The notes under the pieces were generated by a model that worked only from the letters and a program-made list of their open reading frames with translations, ran no database searches and had not been told where the DNA came from. This document shows positions 3,608-26,853 of a DNA stretch of 38,078 bases, one piece after another. The DNA is from Micavibrio sp. (GTDB lineage Bacteria; Pseudomonadota; Alphaproteobacteria; Micavibrionales; Micavibrionaceae). Location of the stretch: NCBI GenBank assembly GCA_012960155.1, contig DUBU01000039.1, forward strand, positions 195,573 to 233,650, in the 5' to 3' direction. Each line of letters starts with the position of its first letter. The first letter of the stretch is position 1. A program made the translations under genes and the position numbers.

Positions 3608-4573
3608 ATGAACGATACAAGACACGAAACTGACGAGCCTCCAAGTACGGCCGCCCCCGTTGCATTAAGAGAAAATGCAAACGGTGGCAAAAACGGAAAC
3701 AGCCATAACGGCAAAGCGGCCGATAACGGCGGCCTATTCAAAATTTTTAAGACCATGTTTAAAAGTAAAAACGACACTTCGCTGCGCGAAGCTATTGAAG
3801 AATATATCGAAGAGCAGGATTCACAATCCGATATTAACGAGAGTGTTGAATCCATCCATGAAAAGCATCTGCTTTCAAATATTCTGCGCTTACGCGATCT
3901 GAAAGTCGTAGATGTTATGATCCCGCGCGCTGATATTATTGCGATCGACATTAACACTACCAAAAAAGACCTGCTGACGATGCTGTCCGAAAAACAACAC
4001 AGCCGTCTGCCTGTTTACCGCGACTCGCTGGATGATGTTGTTGGCACCATCCACATCAAAGATATCCTGCAGTGCCTTGCAGAAGGCCGTAAGTTCAATA
4101 TCGCTGAAATGGTTCGTGATGTTCCTATTGTTTCACCTTCTATGGCTGTACTTGACCTGATCCTGATGATGCGTCAAATGCGCAAACATATGGCTCTAGT
4201 TGTCGACGAATTTGGCGGTATTGATGGTTTGATTGCTATTGGCGACGTTATAGAAGAAATCGTCGGTGAAATTGACGATGAGTACGACGAAGAAAACGAG
4301 CCTGAAATTGTTGAATGCAAAGACGGTTCAATCCTGATCGACGCACGCTATGATATTGAAGACTTCGAAGAAAAATACGGAGAGCTTCTGACGGAAGAAG
4401 AGCGCGAAGATGTCGACACATTAGGCGGACTTGTTTCTTCTATTGCAGGGCGTGTGCCCGTACGGGGCGAGATCATCTCTCACGAAGACTCAGGAACAGT
4501 TTTTGAGATTATGGACGCCGATCCAAGACGTGTAAATCGCCTGCGTATCAAAAATATTCCCTTGTCAGACTAA
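3608..4573 (+). CDS. corC: HlyC/CorC family CBS-domain protein
   Basis: A soluble protein of the HlyC/CorC family, historically linked to magnesium and cobalt efflux; the exact function is not settled. A Ser/Asn-rich, probably disordered N-terminus (to about residue 60) is followed by a CBS pair starting at VVDVMIPRADIIAID and containing SRLPVYRD and DDVVGTIHIKDIL, then MALVVDEFGGIDGLIAIGDVIEEIVGEI and a C-terminal CorC_HlyC domain (EEREDVDTLGGLV, GRVPVRGE). The membrane DUF21 domain of larger relatives is absent, so the protein is likely cytosolic. The start at ATG 3608 is chosen because AGGAA (3594-3598) is nine bases upstream; an earlier ATG at 3599 abuts that site with no spacer. It lies between ybeY and lnt as usual. 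Confidence 0.9.
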   Translation: MNDTRHETDEPPSTAAPVALRENANGGKNGNSHNGKAADNGGLFKIFKTMFKSKNDTSLREAIEEYIEEQDSQSDINESVESIHEKHLLSNILRLRDLKVVDVMIPRADIIAIDINTTKKDLLTMLSEKQHSRLPVYRDSLDDVVGTIHIKDILQCLAEGRKFNIAEMVRDVPIVSPSMAVLDLILMMRQMRKHMALVVDEFGGIDGLIAIGDVIEEIVGEIDDEYDEENEPEIVECKDGSILIDARYDIEDFEEKYGELLTEEEREDVDTLGGLVSSIAGRVPVRGEIISHEDSGTVFEIMDADPRRVNRLRIKNIPLSD

Positions 4574-6790: not shown

Positions 6791-8023
6791 ATGACATTAG
6801 CAACATCAGAAAAACAACCTATGACAAATGCAGCCAATGAGACCAGCAGAAAAGCAGAACTGAAGGAATACATCTTCACTAGCGAATCTGTTTCTGAGGG
6901 GCACCCCGATAAAATTTGTGATCAGGTTTCTGACGCTATTCTTGACCACTTCATGACGCTGGATAGCAACTGCCGCACTGCCGTTGAGTGCGTTACTACT
7001 ACAAATTACCTAGGTATTTTTGGTGAAGTGCGTGGGCCAGACAGTATTACAAAAGATGATGTCGAGGCGATTGCCAGACAGAAAATCAAAGATATTGGTT
7101 ACGAGCAAGACGATTTTCACTGGGATAAAATTAATGTAGACGTCAAAATTCATAAACAATCCGCAGATATTGCGATGGGCGTAGATGCTGGCGAGAATAA
7201 AGACGAAGGCGCCGGCGACCAAGGCATTATGTTTGGTTATGCGTGCCGTGAAACAGATGCTTTGATGCCTGCAGCAATCCATTTTTCTCATGAAATTCTA
7301 AGATCCTTAGCGGAAGCACGTCATTCAGGAGCCTTGCCTAAAATACAACCCGATTCAAAGTCGCAAATCTCTCTGGAATACAGAAATGGCATGCCTGTGC
7401 GTGCCACGTCTATTGTACTATCTACACAGCATAGCGAGGGCGTTTCGCAGCAAGAAGTACGTGATATGGTTATGCCTCATATTACAGATGTCCTTCCTGA
7501 AGGCTGGATGTGTCCGGAAGATGAACTATACATCAACCCAACTGGTCGCTTTGTAATTGGTGGCCCAGTGGGTGATGCTGGGCTTACAGGTCGTAAGATT
7601 ATCGTTGATACATATGGCGGTGCCTGTCCTCACGGTGGTGGCGCATTCTCTGGTAAGGATCCAACAAAAGTTGACCGCTCGGCAGCATACGCAGCACGCT
7701 ATGTAGCTAAGAACATTGTTGCCGCTGGTTATGCGGAACGCTGTACAATTCAGCTCTCTTACGCTATTGGCGTCAGCAAACCTCTATCAGTTTATGTGAA
7801 CACACATGGAACGGGCACTGTCCCTGAAATGGTTCTAGTAAAAGCAGTACAGAATGCAATCGATCTTAGCCCACGCGGCATTATCGAGCACCTACAGCTG
7901 CGCCGCCCGATATATGCCCGCACAGCAAGCTATGGCCACTTCGGCCGTCAAGCCGAAGCCGATGGCGGCTTTAGCTGGGAAAAACTAGACCTCGTAGATA
8001 AGTTGCACAAAATCATTGGCTAA
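6791..8023 (+). CDS. metK: S-adenosylmethionine synthetase
   Basis: Makes S-adenosylmethionine from methionine and ATP in the cytoplasm. Family signatures: [22 protein letters not shown] near residue 31, [12 protein letters not shown], and the phosphate-binding [19 protein letters not shown]; the C-terminus [13 protein letters not shown] is complete. At 410 residues it is slightly longer than the E. coli enzyme because of an N-terminal extension; an alternative ATG lies ten codons in. The leader (6695-6790) holds only a loose CCTGT/ACAGG pairing, and I recognise no SAM riboswitch. The stop overlaps the likely TTG start of trmB, so SAM synthesis and a SAM-using methyltransferase are translationally coupled. 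Confidence 0.97.
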
Positions 8024-14855: not shown

Positions 14856-15125
14856 ATGTCGATTACAGCTGAACGTAAGCAAGAGCTTATTGGCGAATAC
14901 GAAACTAAAAAAGGCGACACTGGTTCACCTGAAGTTCAAGTTGCTATCCTGACAGAGCGTATCAACAACCTGTCAAGCCACATGCAAATCAACAAAAAAG
15001 ACGTGCACAGCCGTCGTGGTCTTTTGGCCATGGTTGCAAAACGTCGTAAACTTCTGGACTACCTGAAGTCAAAAGACGAAGGTCGTTACCAAGACCTGAT
15101 TAAGCGTCTGAACATTCGTCGCTAA
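14856..15125 (+). CDS. rpsO: 30S ribosomal protein S15
   Basis: A primary 16S rRNA-binding protein of the 30S platform. The 89-residue sequence is canonical: [29 protein letters not shown], then [27 protein letters not shown] and [13 protein letters not shown] strong AAGGAG lies just upstream of the ATG. It follows truB closely and is directly followed by a strong terminator, so it ends the operon; pnp, its usual next neighbour in Proteobacteria, is not here. Confidence 0.98.
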
Positions 15126-17557: not shown

Positions 17558-17633
17558 TGGTGGGCGGTGACGGGCTCGAACCGCCGACCCTCTCGGTGTA
17601 AACGAGATGCTCTCCCAACTGAGCTAACCGCCC
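17558..17633 (-). tRNA. tRNA-Val (anticodon TAC)
   Basis: A complete 76-base cloverleaf with encoded CCA: acceptor stem GGGCGGT/ACCGCCC, D-arm GCTCAGTTGGGAGAGC, anticodon stem TCTCG/CGAGA around loop TTTACAC (anticodon TAC), T-arm GGCGG TTCGAAC CCGTC, A73. Valine reading is unambiguous. It lies upstream of the Hsp70-like gene and has its own promoter and terminator. In many alphaproteobacteria a tRNA-Val follows hup; here a small gene lies between them. Confidence 0.97.
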
Positions 17634-23415: not shown

Positions 23416-23500
23416 TGGTGCGGATGAAGGGACTTGAACCCCCACGCCTCGCGGCACTAGAACCTAAATCTAGCGTGTCTACCAATTTCACCACATCCGC
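23416..23500 (-). tRNA. tRNA-Leu (anticodon TAG)
   Basis: An 85-base class II tRNA with a long variable arm and encoded CCA. Acceptor GCGGATG/CATCCGC, anticodon stem CTAGA/TCTAG around TTTAGGT giving anticodon TAG, variable arm TGCCGCGAGGCGT, T-arm GGGGG TTCAAGT CCCTT, A73. The TAG anticodon reads the CTN leucine box. It lies just upstream of tig on the same strand. Confidence 0.97.
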
Positions 23501-23552: not shown

Positions 23553-25076
23553 TCAAGAGAAATTCCGCAGAATGTCAGGAATTTCTTCTATAAGGTCAGG
23601 AGCAACCAATCCCGCGCCTTTCCGAAGGCCCGCTTCACCGTGCATCCAGGCCGCAGCACAAGTGGCTTCAAAGGGCGGCATACCTTGAGCAAGCAGCCCG
23701 CCAATCATACCTGCTAAAACGTCCCCTGCCCCCGCCGTACCAAGCCAAGCTGTTGCATGAGTATGAAAGACTGGCTTGCGACCCGTACGGGCAATAATAG
23801 TATCTGCCCCCTTAAGCAATATAGTGGCCGCAGTCATTTCGGCCGCAAGCATAACTTTCTCATGCTTCAAACCTTCGACATTTGGAAATAGGCGCGCGAA
23901 CTCGCCTTCGTGAGGGGTAATTACACAGCTCTCGTGCATAGCGTTAAGCAAGACTTCAGGTTCATCGGCAAAGCAGGACAATGCGTCAGCATCCAATATA
24001 ATTGGTTTATTAAAAGACAGACTATCAAGCACAGCTTTCTGCAATGAGTCTTTATTATCTAGTCCCGCTCCCGGCCCAATTAAAATTGCTGTGTTCTTCT
24101 CACTATGACAATGCGACGCAAAATCAGCATAATCACCCGTCAAAGATTCAACCATGATATGTGCCGCACCTTCTTTCTGGTAAACTTGCTGCGCCGACTG
24201 TGGGCACACAATAGTCGCAAGCCCCGCACCCATGCGCATTGACGCTTCGGAAGACATTCTAATAGCGCCTGTCATACGCTCGCCACCCAAAATAATAATG
24301 TGGCCGCGCTTGTATTTGTGAGAAGCACTAGTAATCTTGGGAAGATCTTCTCGCCAGAAAGCAGGCTGGTTATCATATCCAACGCACCCTGTCTCTTTAG
24401 TAACAGAGTCTTCTATCCCTATATCGTGGGTAGTAATATGCCCGCAGAACTCCATTGATGGCATCAAGAGATGTGCTAGTTTTTTGCGAAAGAACGTTAC
24501 TGTTCGCTTGGCTTGCAAGCACCGCTCATCCATTTCCCCCGTATCCCCACAAACACCACTAGGAACATCAATGGCAACGACAGGGAACTTGCCATTTTTA
24601 ACAATAGAGAAGATATCAGTTACAGACTTATCAAGCGCGCCTCTAAAGCCGCTCCCAAACAACGCATCAACGATAACTACATTGTTCTCGCTTTCTGGAA
24701 GCGATTTAAAAGATAAAAGTTTGCCACCCCAAGATTTTAAAGCCTGTTTAGCATCACCCTTATATTTACGGGCTGGCGCTAGCCCCATAACTTGAACATT
24801 ATGTCCTAAGTCTTGCAAGAACATAGCCGCCACAAAACCATCACCGCCATTATTACCAGGCCCCGCCAGCACAATAACATCATGATCGTCATAATGTTCA
24901 TGAACTACGTTCGCGACGGCTTGTCCTGCTGACAGCATCAAGGGGTACGATTCTCCTAATGCTTCGGCAGCGATGGCGTCAGCGGCGGACATCTGCGCGC
25001 AGTTTAAAACAGCACACACAGTGCGCTTATCTAACTCTTCATCCTGACTGGAATTATTTTGAAAACCCAAAAGCAT
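23553..25076 (-). CDS. nnrDE: Bifunctional NAD(P)HX epimerase / ADP-dependent NAD(P)HX dehydratase
   Basis: Repairs hydrated NADH and NADPH. The N-terminal YjeF_N domain (~residues 25-220) has VIVLAGPGNNGGDGFVAA and PVVAIDVPSGVCGDTGE. The C-terminal ribokinase-like domain (~240-507) has HKYKRGHIIILGG, AILIGPGAGLD, PIILDADALSCF, CVITPHEGEFARLFP and GTAGAGDVLAGMIGGLLAQG. The fusion is the normal bacterial arrangement. The frame extends upstream into a tRNA, so I start at ATG 25076 (507 residues); no clear ribosome site precedes it, and the gene may be translated from a transcript shared with that tRNA. glnA, a frequent neighbour in alphaproteobacteria, lies beyond the tRNA on the other strand. 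Confidence 0.95.
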   Translation of the reverse strand: MLLGFQNNSSQDEELDKRTVCAVLNCAQMSAADAIAAEALGESYPLMLSAGQAVANVVHEHYDDHDVIVLAGPGNNGGDGFVAAMFLQDLGHNVQVMGLAPARKYKGDAKQALKSWGGKLLSFKSLPESENNVVIVDALFGSGFRGALDKSVTDIFSIVKNGKFPVVAIDVPSGVCGDTGEMDERCLQAKRTVTFFRKKLAHLLMPSMEFCGHITTHDIGIEDSVTKETGCVGYDNQPAFWREDLPKITSASHKYKRGHIIILGGERMTGAIRMSSEASMRMGAGLATIVCPQSAQQVYQKEGAAHIMVESLTGDYADFASHCHSEKNTAILIGPGAGLDNKDSLQKAVLDSLSFNKPIILDADALSCFADEPEVLLNAMHESCVITPHEGEFARLFPNVEGLKHEKVMLAAEMTAATILLKGADTIIARTGRKPVFHTHATAWLGTAGAGDVLAGMIGGLLAQGMPPFEATCAAAWMHGEAGLRKGAGLVAPDLIEEIPDILRNFS

Positions 25077-25121: not shown

Positions 25122-25197
25122 TGGGGCGGCTGACGGGGATTGAACCCGCGACAACTCGGATCCCAACCGAGTGCTCTACCACTGAGCTACAGCCGCC
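25122..25197 (-). tRNA. tRNA with proline anticodon GGG on a tRNA-His-like body
   Basis: The 76 bases fold well: encoded G-1 (25197), acceptor GCGGCTG/CAGCCGC, TA at 8-9, D-arm GCTCAGTGGTAGAGC, anticodon stem CTCGG/CCGAG around loop TTGGGAT, variable loop TTGTC, T-arm GCGGG TTCAATC CCCGT, C73 and encoded CCA. The anticodon reads as GGG, so an automatic caller would name it tRNA-Pro. The rest is tRNA-His: G-1 facing C73, GTTGTCG in the variable region, A37 and TT before the anticodon, all as in E. coli tRNA-His. Bacterial tRNA-Pro normally has C1-G72, A73 and G37, none of which is present. A single base change (GTG to GGG) would explain it. Existence of the tRNA is certain; which amino acid it carries is not. 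Confidence 0.9.
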
Positions 25198-25356: not shown

Positions 25357-25414
25357 CAGTAATGCGTTTTTTACATAGGTGCATCGCAATAAACTAAAAC
25401 GGAAAGAGGACAAG

Positions 25415-26853
25415 ATGTCTGCCAAGCCAAATACGCTTAGCTATACAAGCAAGAACACCAATGACTTTCTGAAAGCATTGGAAGAAAATGAAGTACAATA
25501 TGTAGATTTCAACTTCACTGACATGCGCGGCAAATGGCAGCATACAGCTCAGCACGTTGACTCTATTGACGGCTCAATGATTGATGACGGCATTTACTTT
25601 GACGGATCATCTATCGCAGGTTGGAAATCAATCAATGAATCAGACATGATCCTGAAGGCTGATGTTGGTAAGTGGTGTATGGATCCATTCGCAGCACAAC
25701 CAACAATGAAAGTATTCTGTGACGTTCTTGAGCCTTCAACTGGCGAGAACTACAACCGTGACCCACGCTCAATTGCAAAAGCAGCTGAAGACTACCTGAA
25801 AAAACTGGGTATTGCTGACACAGTATATTGCGGCCCAGAAGCAGAGTTCTTCGTATTTGACGATGTTCGTATTCACAACACAATGAAACAGGTTTTAAAA
25901 TTGATAGTTCAGAAGGTCCATACAATACAGGCCGCGATTACGAAATGGGTAACATGGGTCACCGTCCACGCGTCAAAGGCGGTTACTTCCCTGAAGCTCC
26001 GGTTGACAGCCTGTCAAACGTACGCGCGGAGATGACAACTGTATTACGTCACATGGGCGTTGAAGTTGAAAAACACCACCACGAAGTGGCTCCTAGCCAA
26101 TGTGAACTTGGCATCAAATTCTCTTCAATGACCGATAGTGCTGACAACATTCAGCTCTACAAATACGTTGTTCATAATGTTGCACACGCATACGGCAAAA
26201 CAGCGACATTTATGCCTAAGCCGATCTTCGGTGATAACGGCTCCGGTATGCACTGCCATATGTCTCTGTTTAAAGGCGGCAAGCCAAACTTTGCTGGTGA
26301 CGAATATGCCGGCCTTTCCGAACAGTGCCTGTACTACATCGGCGGTATCATCAAGCACGCACGTACCTTGAATGCATTCACTAACCCGTCAACAAACAGC
26401 TACAAGCGCTTGGTGCCAGGTTACGAAGCCCCTGTTCTACTGGCTTACTCACAGCGTAACCGTTCAGCATCTTGCCGTATTCCATTCGCACCGAATGAAA
26501 AAGGCAAGCGCGTTGAAATCCGTTTCCCTGATCCGACAGCAAACAGCTACCTTGCATTCTCAGCAATGCTGATGGCTGGTCTAGACGGTATCCAGAATAA
26601 GATCCACCCAGGCGAAGCTATGGACATGAACCTTTACGATCTGCCTGAAGAACAGTTGAGAGATATCCCGACAGTTTGTGGCTCACTCCGTGAATCAATG
26701 GAAGCTTTGCAGCAAGACTACGAATTCCTGACAAAGGGCGACGTATTCACTGAAGATATGCTGGAAAGCTACATCGAGCTTAAAATGGAAGAGATCGACG
26801 TATACGAAACAACGCCTCACCCAATCGAGTACTACTTGTACTACTCATCATAA
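25415..26853 (+). CDS. glnA: Glutamine synthetase type I, reading frame interrupted at 25894-25900
   Basis: Makes glutamine from glutamate, ammonia and ATP. The first frame runs from ATG 25415 (AGAGGA upstream) through [30 protein letters not shown] and [22 protein letters not shown], then leaves homology and stops at 26035. The second frame continues from [24 protein letters not shown] through [69 protein letters not shown] and the adenylylation-site region [10 protein letters not shown], to a normal C-terminus. The switch falls on T_TTA_AAA (25894-25900): a -1 slip there, or one extra T in the T4 run, gives a full protein of about 479 residues with no further defect. It is either programmed frameshifting, a fresh null mutation or a sequence error. 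The downstream part shows no decay. Confidence 0.92.

Follow-up and report, generated by a model that had tools for sequence, protein, structure and literature searches.

Is a tRNA gene whose body belongs to one amino acid and whose anticodon belongs to another a sign of unusual decoding, or of a fault in the sequence? The question is raised by a gene of Micavibrio sp. in a stretch of 38,078 nucleotides of contig DUBU01000039.1 (the window, by which we mean the whole stretch analysed). The initial annotation described it as a tRNA-His body carrying the proline anticodon GGG and considered that, if charged with histidine, it would insert histidine at CCC and CCU, with a single-base error as one of the fallbacks.

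Anatomy and isotype of the tRNA gene

The tRNA that ARAGORN calls here, with GGG as its anticodon, spans 25122-25196 (-), and the encoded G-1, base 25197, lies just outside it (Table 1). The stems are all paired, the fold has a minimum free energy of -35.4 kcal/mol (z = -3.03; two of 200 shuffles folded equally well), and outside the anticodon there is no sign of decay; this is no chance tRNA-like match. G-1, C73, the encoded CCA, U33 and A37 were all found as annotated, together with a G1-C72 pair. The gene thus has the G-1:C73 pair and the CCA end of a canonical bacterial tRNA-His, and tRNA-His is also its closest body, with 89–97% identity to the tRNA-His of all 29 relatives compared and 60–65% to five tRNA-Pro, whereas its anticodon in the assembly is GGG and not GTG. 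A small, home-made HMM of the 29 relatives' tRNA-His, from which the window's gene was left out, scored it at 82.0 bits, or 78.5 once the anticodon was masked, and an equally small, home-made model of five tRNA-Pro, the genome's own two among them, at 21.3 bits (15.3 masked). The genome's two own tRNA-Pro scored the opposite way, Pro above His, though they form part of the Pro model's training set. The isotype comparison that the initial annotation had called for therefore did not, with these small models, place proline above histidine and, apart from the anticodon, the body reads in its sequence as that of a histidine tRNA.

Table 1. Features at and around the tRNA gene, in window coordinates
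Feature	Coordinates	Strand	Evidence or remark
Resident tRNA-His gene, anticodon GGG in the assembly	25122..25197	-	G-1, C73 and CCA encoded; ARAGORN and fold
Anticodon triplet	25162..25164	-	Its middle base, position 35, corresponds to C at 25163 of the plus strand (giving GGG)
Gene downstream of tRNA-His	23553..25076	-	Relatives' ORFs of 501 and 523 aa align from 25076 on
tRNA-Leu(TAG)	23416..23500	-	ARAGORN; downstream neighbour of tRNA-His, kept in G002 and G015
tRNA-Val(TAC)	17558..17633	-	ARAGORN; further neighbour, kept in G002 and G015
Presumed glnA, split in two overlapping ORFs	25379..26853	+	ORFs 25379-26035 and 25945-26853

What such a molecule would accept, were it real, can be judged from the identity elements. 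According to one review, G-1 (with C73) dominates histidine identity in Escherichia coli, the anticodon contributes to it, and the G-1:C73 pair gives histidine acceptance to a tRNA-Ala minihelix (PMC9976931). The same source gives G72, G35, A37, G36 and A73 as proline determinants, A73 being strictly conserved in bacterial tRNA-Pro, and names G37 as an additional determinant in one isoacceptor (PMC9976931). The initial annotation had held that ProRS expects C1-G72, A73 and G37: the first two are indeed absent (G1-C72 and C73 stand in their place), while the expectation of G37 holds as an addition for the one isoacceptor and fails in so far as A37 is itself among the strong determinants. If the base is real, the tRNA could be charged with histidine, less well than normal because the anticodon is also part of histidine identity in E. 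coli, and hardly with proline, because G72 and A73 are lacking. We therefore give almost no credence to the idea that a spare tRNA-His has become, or is becoming, a ProRS-charged tRNA-Pro by an anticodon shift. It could draw on G35, G36 and A37, all of which are present and count among the ProRS determinants (PMC9976931), and it has against it C72 and C73, the scores of the two models, and the ordinary tRNA-Pro(GGG) (L024) and tRNA-Pro(TGG) (L012) already in the genome, the former of which the initial annotation had asked for.

A resident locus, the search for further copies and a broken neighbour

The position of the gene shows what it is. On the minus strand, tRNA-His is followed by the gene starting at 25076, tRNA-Leu(TAG), further genes that we take to be tig, clpP and lon, and tRNA-Val(TAC). 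The His–Leu(TAG)–Val(TAC) order recurs, with orthologous genes, at the canonical tRNA-His of a genome of the same genus (G002, C44) and of one of the same family (G015, C8), and in the G001 and G003 stretches tRNA-His adjoins the same glnA-type gene. Because it sits at this conserved locus, the window's tRNA is the resident gene and no added paralogue. The gene next to it, nnrD/nnrE-like as we presume, probably starts at about 25076, judging from the alignment with its relatives, and not at a TTG at 25166 within the tRNA.

In the relatives this locus carries GTG. A BLAST search with the window's tRNA over 58 genomes, its own included, matched in 56, and in all 29 relatives' tRNA-His loci that were typed (30 loci were given, one of them the window's own) the anticodon is GTG. 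A pattern for a His body with GTG was searched for in 94 genomes of the order and matched 85, with one copy in 84 of them and two in G057; the genus's three other members are all among the 85, and the window's genome has no match. The corresponding GGG pattern was found in one of 142 genomes of the order, which is the window's own, so the search for the same tRNA in related genomes that had been suggested returned only the gene that prompted it.

Nor does the assembly hold another tRNA-His. The Rfam tRNA model gave 32 tRNA genes in the genome, among which (30 loci and two further stretches typed) none has a GTG anticodon; BLAST with the window's tRNA against its own genome (E <= 0.001) matched itself and one tRNA-Val but no second His body, and neither a generic T-arm/CCA pattern nor the GTG pattern found a tRNA-His elsewhere in the assembly. 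The initial annotation had foreseen that such an outcome would point to a sequence error. As evidence it is weak, however, because every tRNA-Thr and tRNA-Gln is missing from the 32 genes as well; no initiator-like tRNA-Met is present in the assembly either, judged by reading the sequences, and a Thr pattern allowing up to two mismatches matched three non-Thr tRNAs only. In the genus mate G002, the same search gave four genes for tRNA-Thr, one for tRNA-Gln and an initiator-like tRNA-Met. (In G015, the stretch C9:68871-69045 has an exact tRNA-Thr(TGT)-like match and, some 100 bases ahead of it, a degenerate tRNA-Thr-like one.) The assembly is given as 99.62% complete despite these absences, and the missing essential genes presumably lie in its gaps.

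This opens the way to the main rival of a sequence error, namely that the base is real, that a normal tRNA-His(GTG) gene lies in a gap, and that the resident copy is a fresh mutant duplicate, probably inert or poorly charged. The loss from the assembly of essential tRNA genes that G002 possesses speaks for it, as do the two tRNA-His of G057 in the same order. The single copy in 84 of the 85 genomes with the GTG pattern speaks against it and, since the mutated copy holds the resident locus, the hidden GTG gene would have to be the extra one. We consider this explanation unlikely, and it leaves one further observation, on the gene next door, unexplained.

That gene, which by its sequence we take to be the glutamine synthetase gene glnA, is broken. 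Aligned with four relatives, it shows a frameshift near 25890 (net -4 bases), at a distance of some 730 bases from the anticodon; aside from it the gene looks normal. The orthologue is open in G001, G002, G003 and G015, with frames of 476–502 aa, and the frameshifted gene is the only match in the window's genome to the protein of the 3' ORF, while G001 has one remote homologue besides its orthologue. Within the region compared, no other orthologous gene of the window is split, except for an antisense reading of glnA; in this check the relatives' ORFs were set against the window and 36 of 94 matched, the first 18 kb being without a relative for comparison because the upstream stretch of G015 (L295) gave no match. 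The genes for tRNA-His and glutamine synthetase are ones that a cell can hardly spare, the latter being generally held essential. Two lesions in adjacent genes of this kind make a poor stretch of sequence likelier than biology. A mixture of strains or a chimeric contig, in which a minority variant, damaged or pseudogenised, supplied the tRNA–glnA stretch, would also bring two lesions close together and leave the other compared genes unsplit. The stretch, however, has the normal gene order and is enclosed in a contig longer than 335 kb, and the rest of both genes is normal, so that we give this origin only a slim chance.

The codons in use bear on what the cell decodes. They were counted in the window's proteins against two to four relatives, in the genes that align, from about 18.5 to 35 kb. 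At 55 positions where the relatives have histidine throughout, the window has CAC at 31, CAT at 22 and another codon at two; since CAC or CAT is thus still used at 53 of 55 conserved histidine positions, a GUG tRNA should, under standard codon–anticodon pairing, exist in the cell. At 137 positions where the relatives have proline throughout it has CCT at 58, CCC at 7, CCA at 35, CCG at 28 and other codons at 9. The 65 of 137 conserved proline positions with CCC or CCT reject a reassignment of these codons to histidine, in agreement with the initial annotation, whose two examples (CCC at 6905-6907 and CCT at 14928-14930) read as stated. C-to-U editing of anticodons is known for other tRNAs, and as a rescue it was rejected here as well, because position 35 is G, not C, and editing cannot restore GUG.

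What remains of a functional reading is a mistranslating tRNA: the base is true, a GTG gene lies in a gap, and the resident gene is a reader of CCC and CCU which HisRS charges through G-1:C73, placing some histidine at proline codons. Its attractions are that G-1 is the major histidine determinant, that the body is intact, and that the ordinary tRNA-Pro(GGG) would still read the proline codons. Against it, the state is confined to one genome of the 142 searched in the order and to one base at a resident locus with a broken gene beside it, heavy insertion of histidine would strike conserved prolines widely, and the hidden GTG gene would be needed in addition. The genome has one hisS match over the cut-off and no second, the search having covered hisS alone among the synthetase genes. 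The suggestion that histidine is inserted at proline codons thus found no positive support, and we hold it to be very improbable.

Occurrence in other genomes and in viruses

Beyond the order, a strict pattern for a His body with GGG, limited to forms with A37, found no match in a collection of 84,980 species, and because of this a looser pattern was used, which returned three records. Since both patterns demand that CCA be encoded and that the spacing be fixed, other forms of tRNA-His escape them; genomes very near that of the window are possibly absent from the collection, and the GTG control for the patterns is the set of genomes of the order, not the collection itself. Two of the three records, one in a Rickettsiaceae MAG (L064:1442-1518, -) and one in an Opitutaceae MAG (L065:4281-4357, -), have G-1, C73 and GGG. 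The first is a His body with one changed D-stem base and 91% identity to the tRNA of its closest relative; the second differs from the tRNA-His(GTG) of its closest relative at the anticodon base only. In neither genome is there a further exact match to the GTG-or-GGG His pattern, although weaker, untyped BLAST matches at 76–77% identity occur, two in the genome of L064 and one in that of L065. Among the relatives of L064, 19 of the 22 other matched genomes were read and gave 14 His-bodied tRNAs, all with GTG, and five other tRNAs; among those of L065, 19 of the 23 others were read and all have GTG; L277, which is among them, lacks G-1 and C73. By BLAST, L064 shows little similarity to two relatives' loci beyond the tRNA, and L065 matches L297 in part.

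The third record, from a Myxococcales MAG (L066), was dropped, since ARAGORN calls no tRNA there and only the 3' half is tRNA-Pro-like. This half (4087-4131, -) lies some 3 kb from a tRNA-Pro call at 7240-7317 (-), and the pair might be an attachment-site duplication made by a mobile element.

A phage-borne kind of tRNA was considered and rejected, as no His-body/GGG tRNA was found in viral contigs against at least 120 stretches of the His-body/GTG form. A pattern with position 35 set to A or C gave one viral match, L116:585-660 (-), which has the anticodon GCG and a His-like 3' half but a 5' half unlike His bodies. The genomes were searched for G at position 35 only, and for this reason no preference for T-to-G changes can be claimed.

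The state is therefore rare and scattered. That it occurs in three genomes makes biology possible in principle; if it were true, the Rickettsiaceae and Opitutaceae cases would stand for independent origins of a tRNA that mistranslates proline codons as histidine. We would rather count two unrelated MAGs that each carry GGG in isolation towards an error.

Origin of the anticodon base and comparison with known systems

We propose that a sequence or assembly error in an ordinary tRNA-His gene best explains the anticodon, with a probability of roughly 0.8. The resident gene would carry one wrong deposited base at position 35, from a base call or from the consensus, and in the living cell it most likely reads GTG and decodes CAC and CAU as histidine. 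That the base is wrong we infer, as most likely, from the evidence as a whole, including GTG in all 29 typed relatives and the frameshift nearby; what had been offered as a fallback thus becomes the preferred reading.

A random read error seldom survives into a consensus, which is a point against an error. The site itself makes an error to G plausible, because the relatives have a T at position 35, flanked by a G on either side and lying in a hairpin loop. Illumina substitutions fall mostly at T on the GAII and HiSeq, with G favoured as the wrong base on the HiSeq, and the paper reporting this also cites older work in which errors followed a G or lay close to inverted repeats (PMC4787001). An early Genome Analyzer study is mentioned elsewhere as reporting 'a strong preference for T-to-G substitutions' (PMC8002175). 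The same literature also holds the opposite direction, one study having found GGG to GGT the most frequent error (cited in PMC4787001), and the commonest motif in these accounts, a preceding 3-mer ending in GG, differs from the TTG that precedes position 35.

More generally, a single wrong base in an assembly can make the body of a tRNA and its anticodon disagree, and cheap tests are at hand for any such gene: whether it holds the resident locus, whether other copies exist, which codons are in use, whether lesions lie nearby, and what state the relatives have.

Set beside known systems, the gene is closest to the canonical tRNA-His(GTG) of its order (G002 and G015), which it resembles in G-1, C73, CCA and locus and from which it differs at position 35, with GGG in place of GTG. 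In the part of the literature that was covered, we found no described case of a natural tRNA with a His body and a Pro anticodon, or of an isotype mismatch of this kind in bacteria. The tRNA-ProX of various Streptomyces and Kitasatospora species likewise combine the body of one identity with the anticodon of another, being tRNA-Pro in body but bearing the anticodon of Ala, Asn or Thr, and they often adjoin a ProRSx-type gene, according to a commentary (PMC10365949). Compared with these, a His body with a Pro anticodon runs in the reverse direction, and it is here the only tRNA-His found in its assembly, in a single genome of the order; were it real, it would be a natural tRNA for histidine at proline codons, a direction absent from the examples in that commentary. 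The yeast tRNA-Ser engineered to carry a proline anticodon is likewise described as a foreign body that reads proline codons, but unlike the gene of the window it is a laboratory system, with a serine body and in a eukaryote (PMC6827378, PMC9258585).
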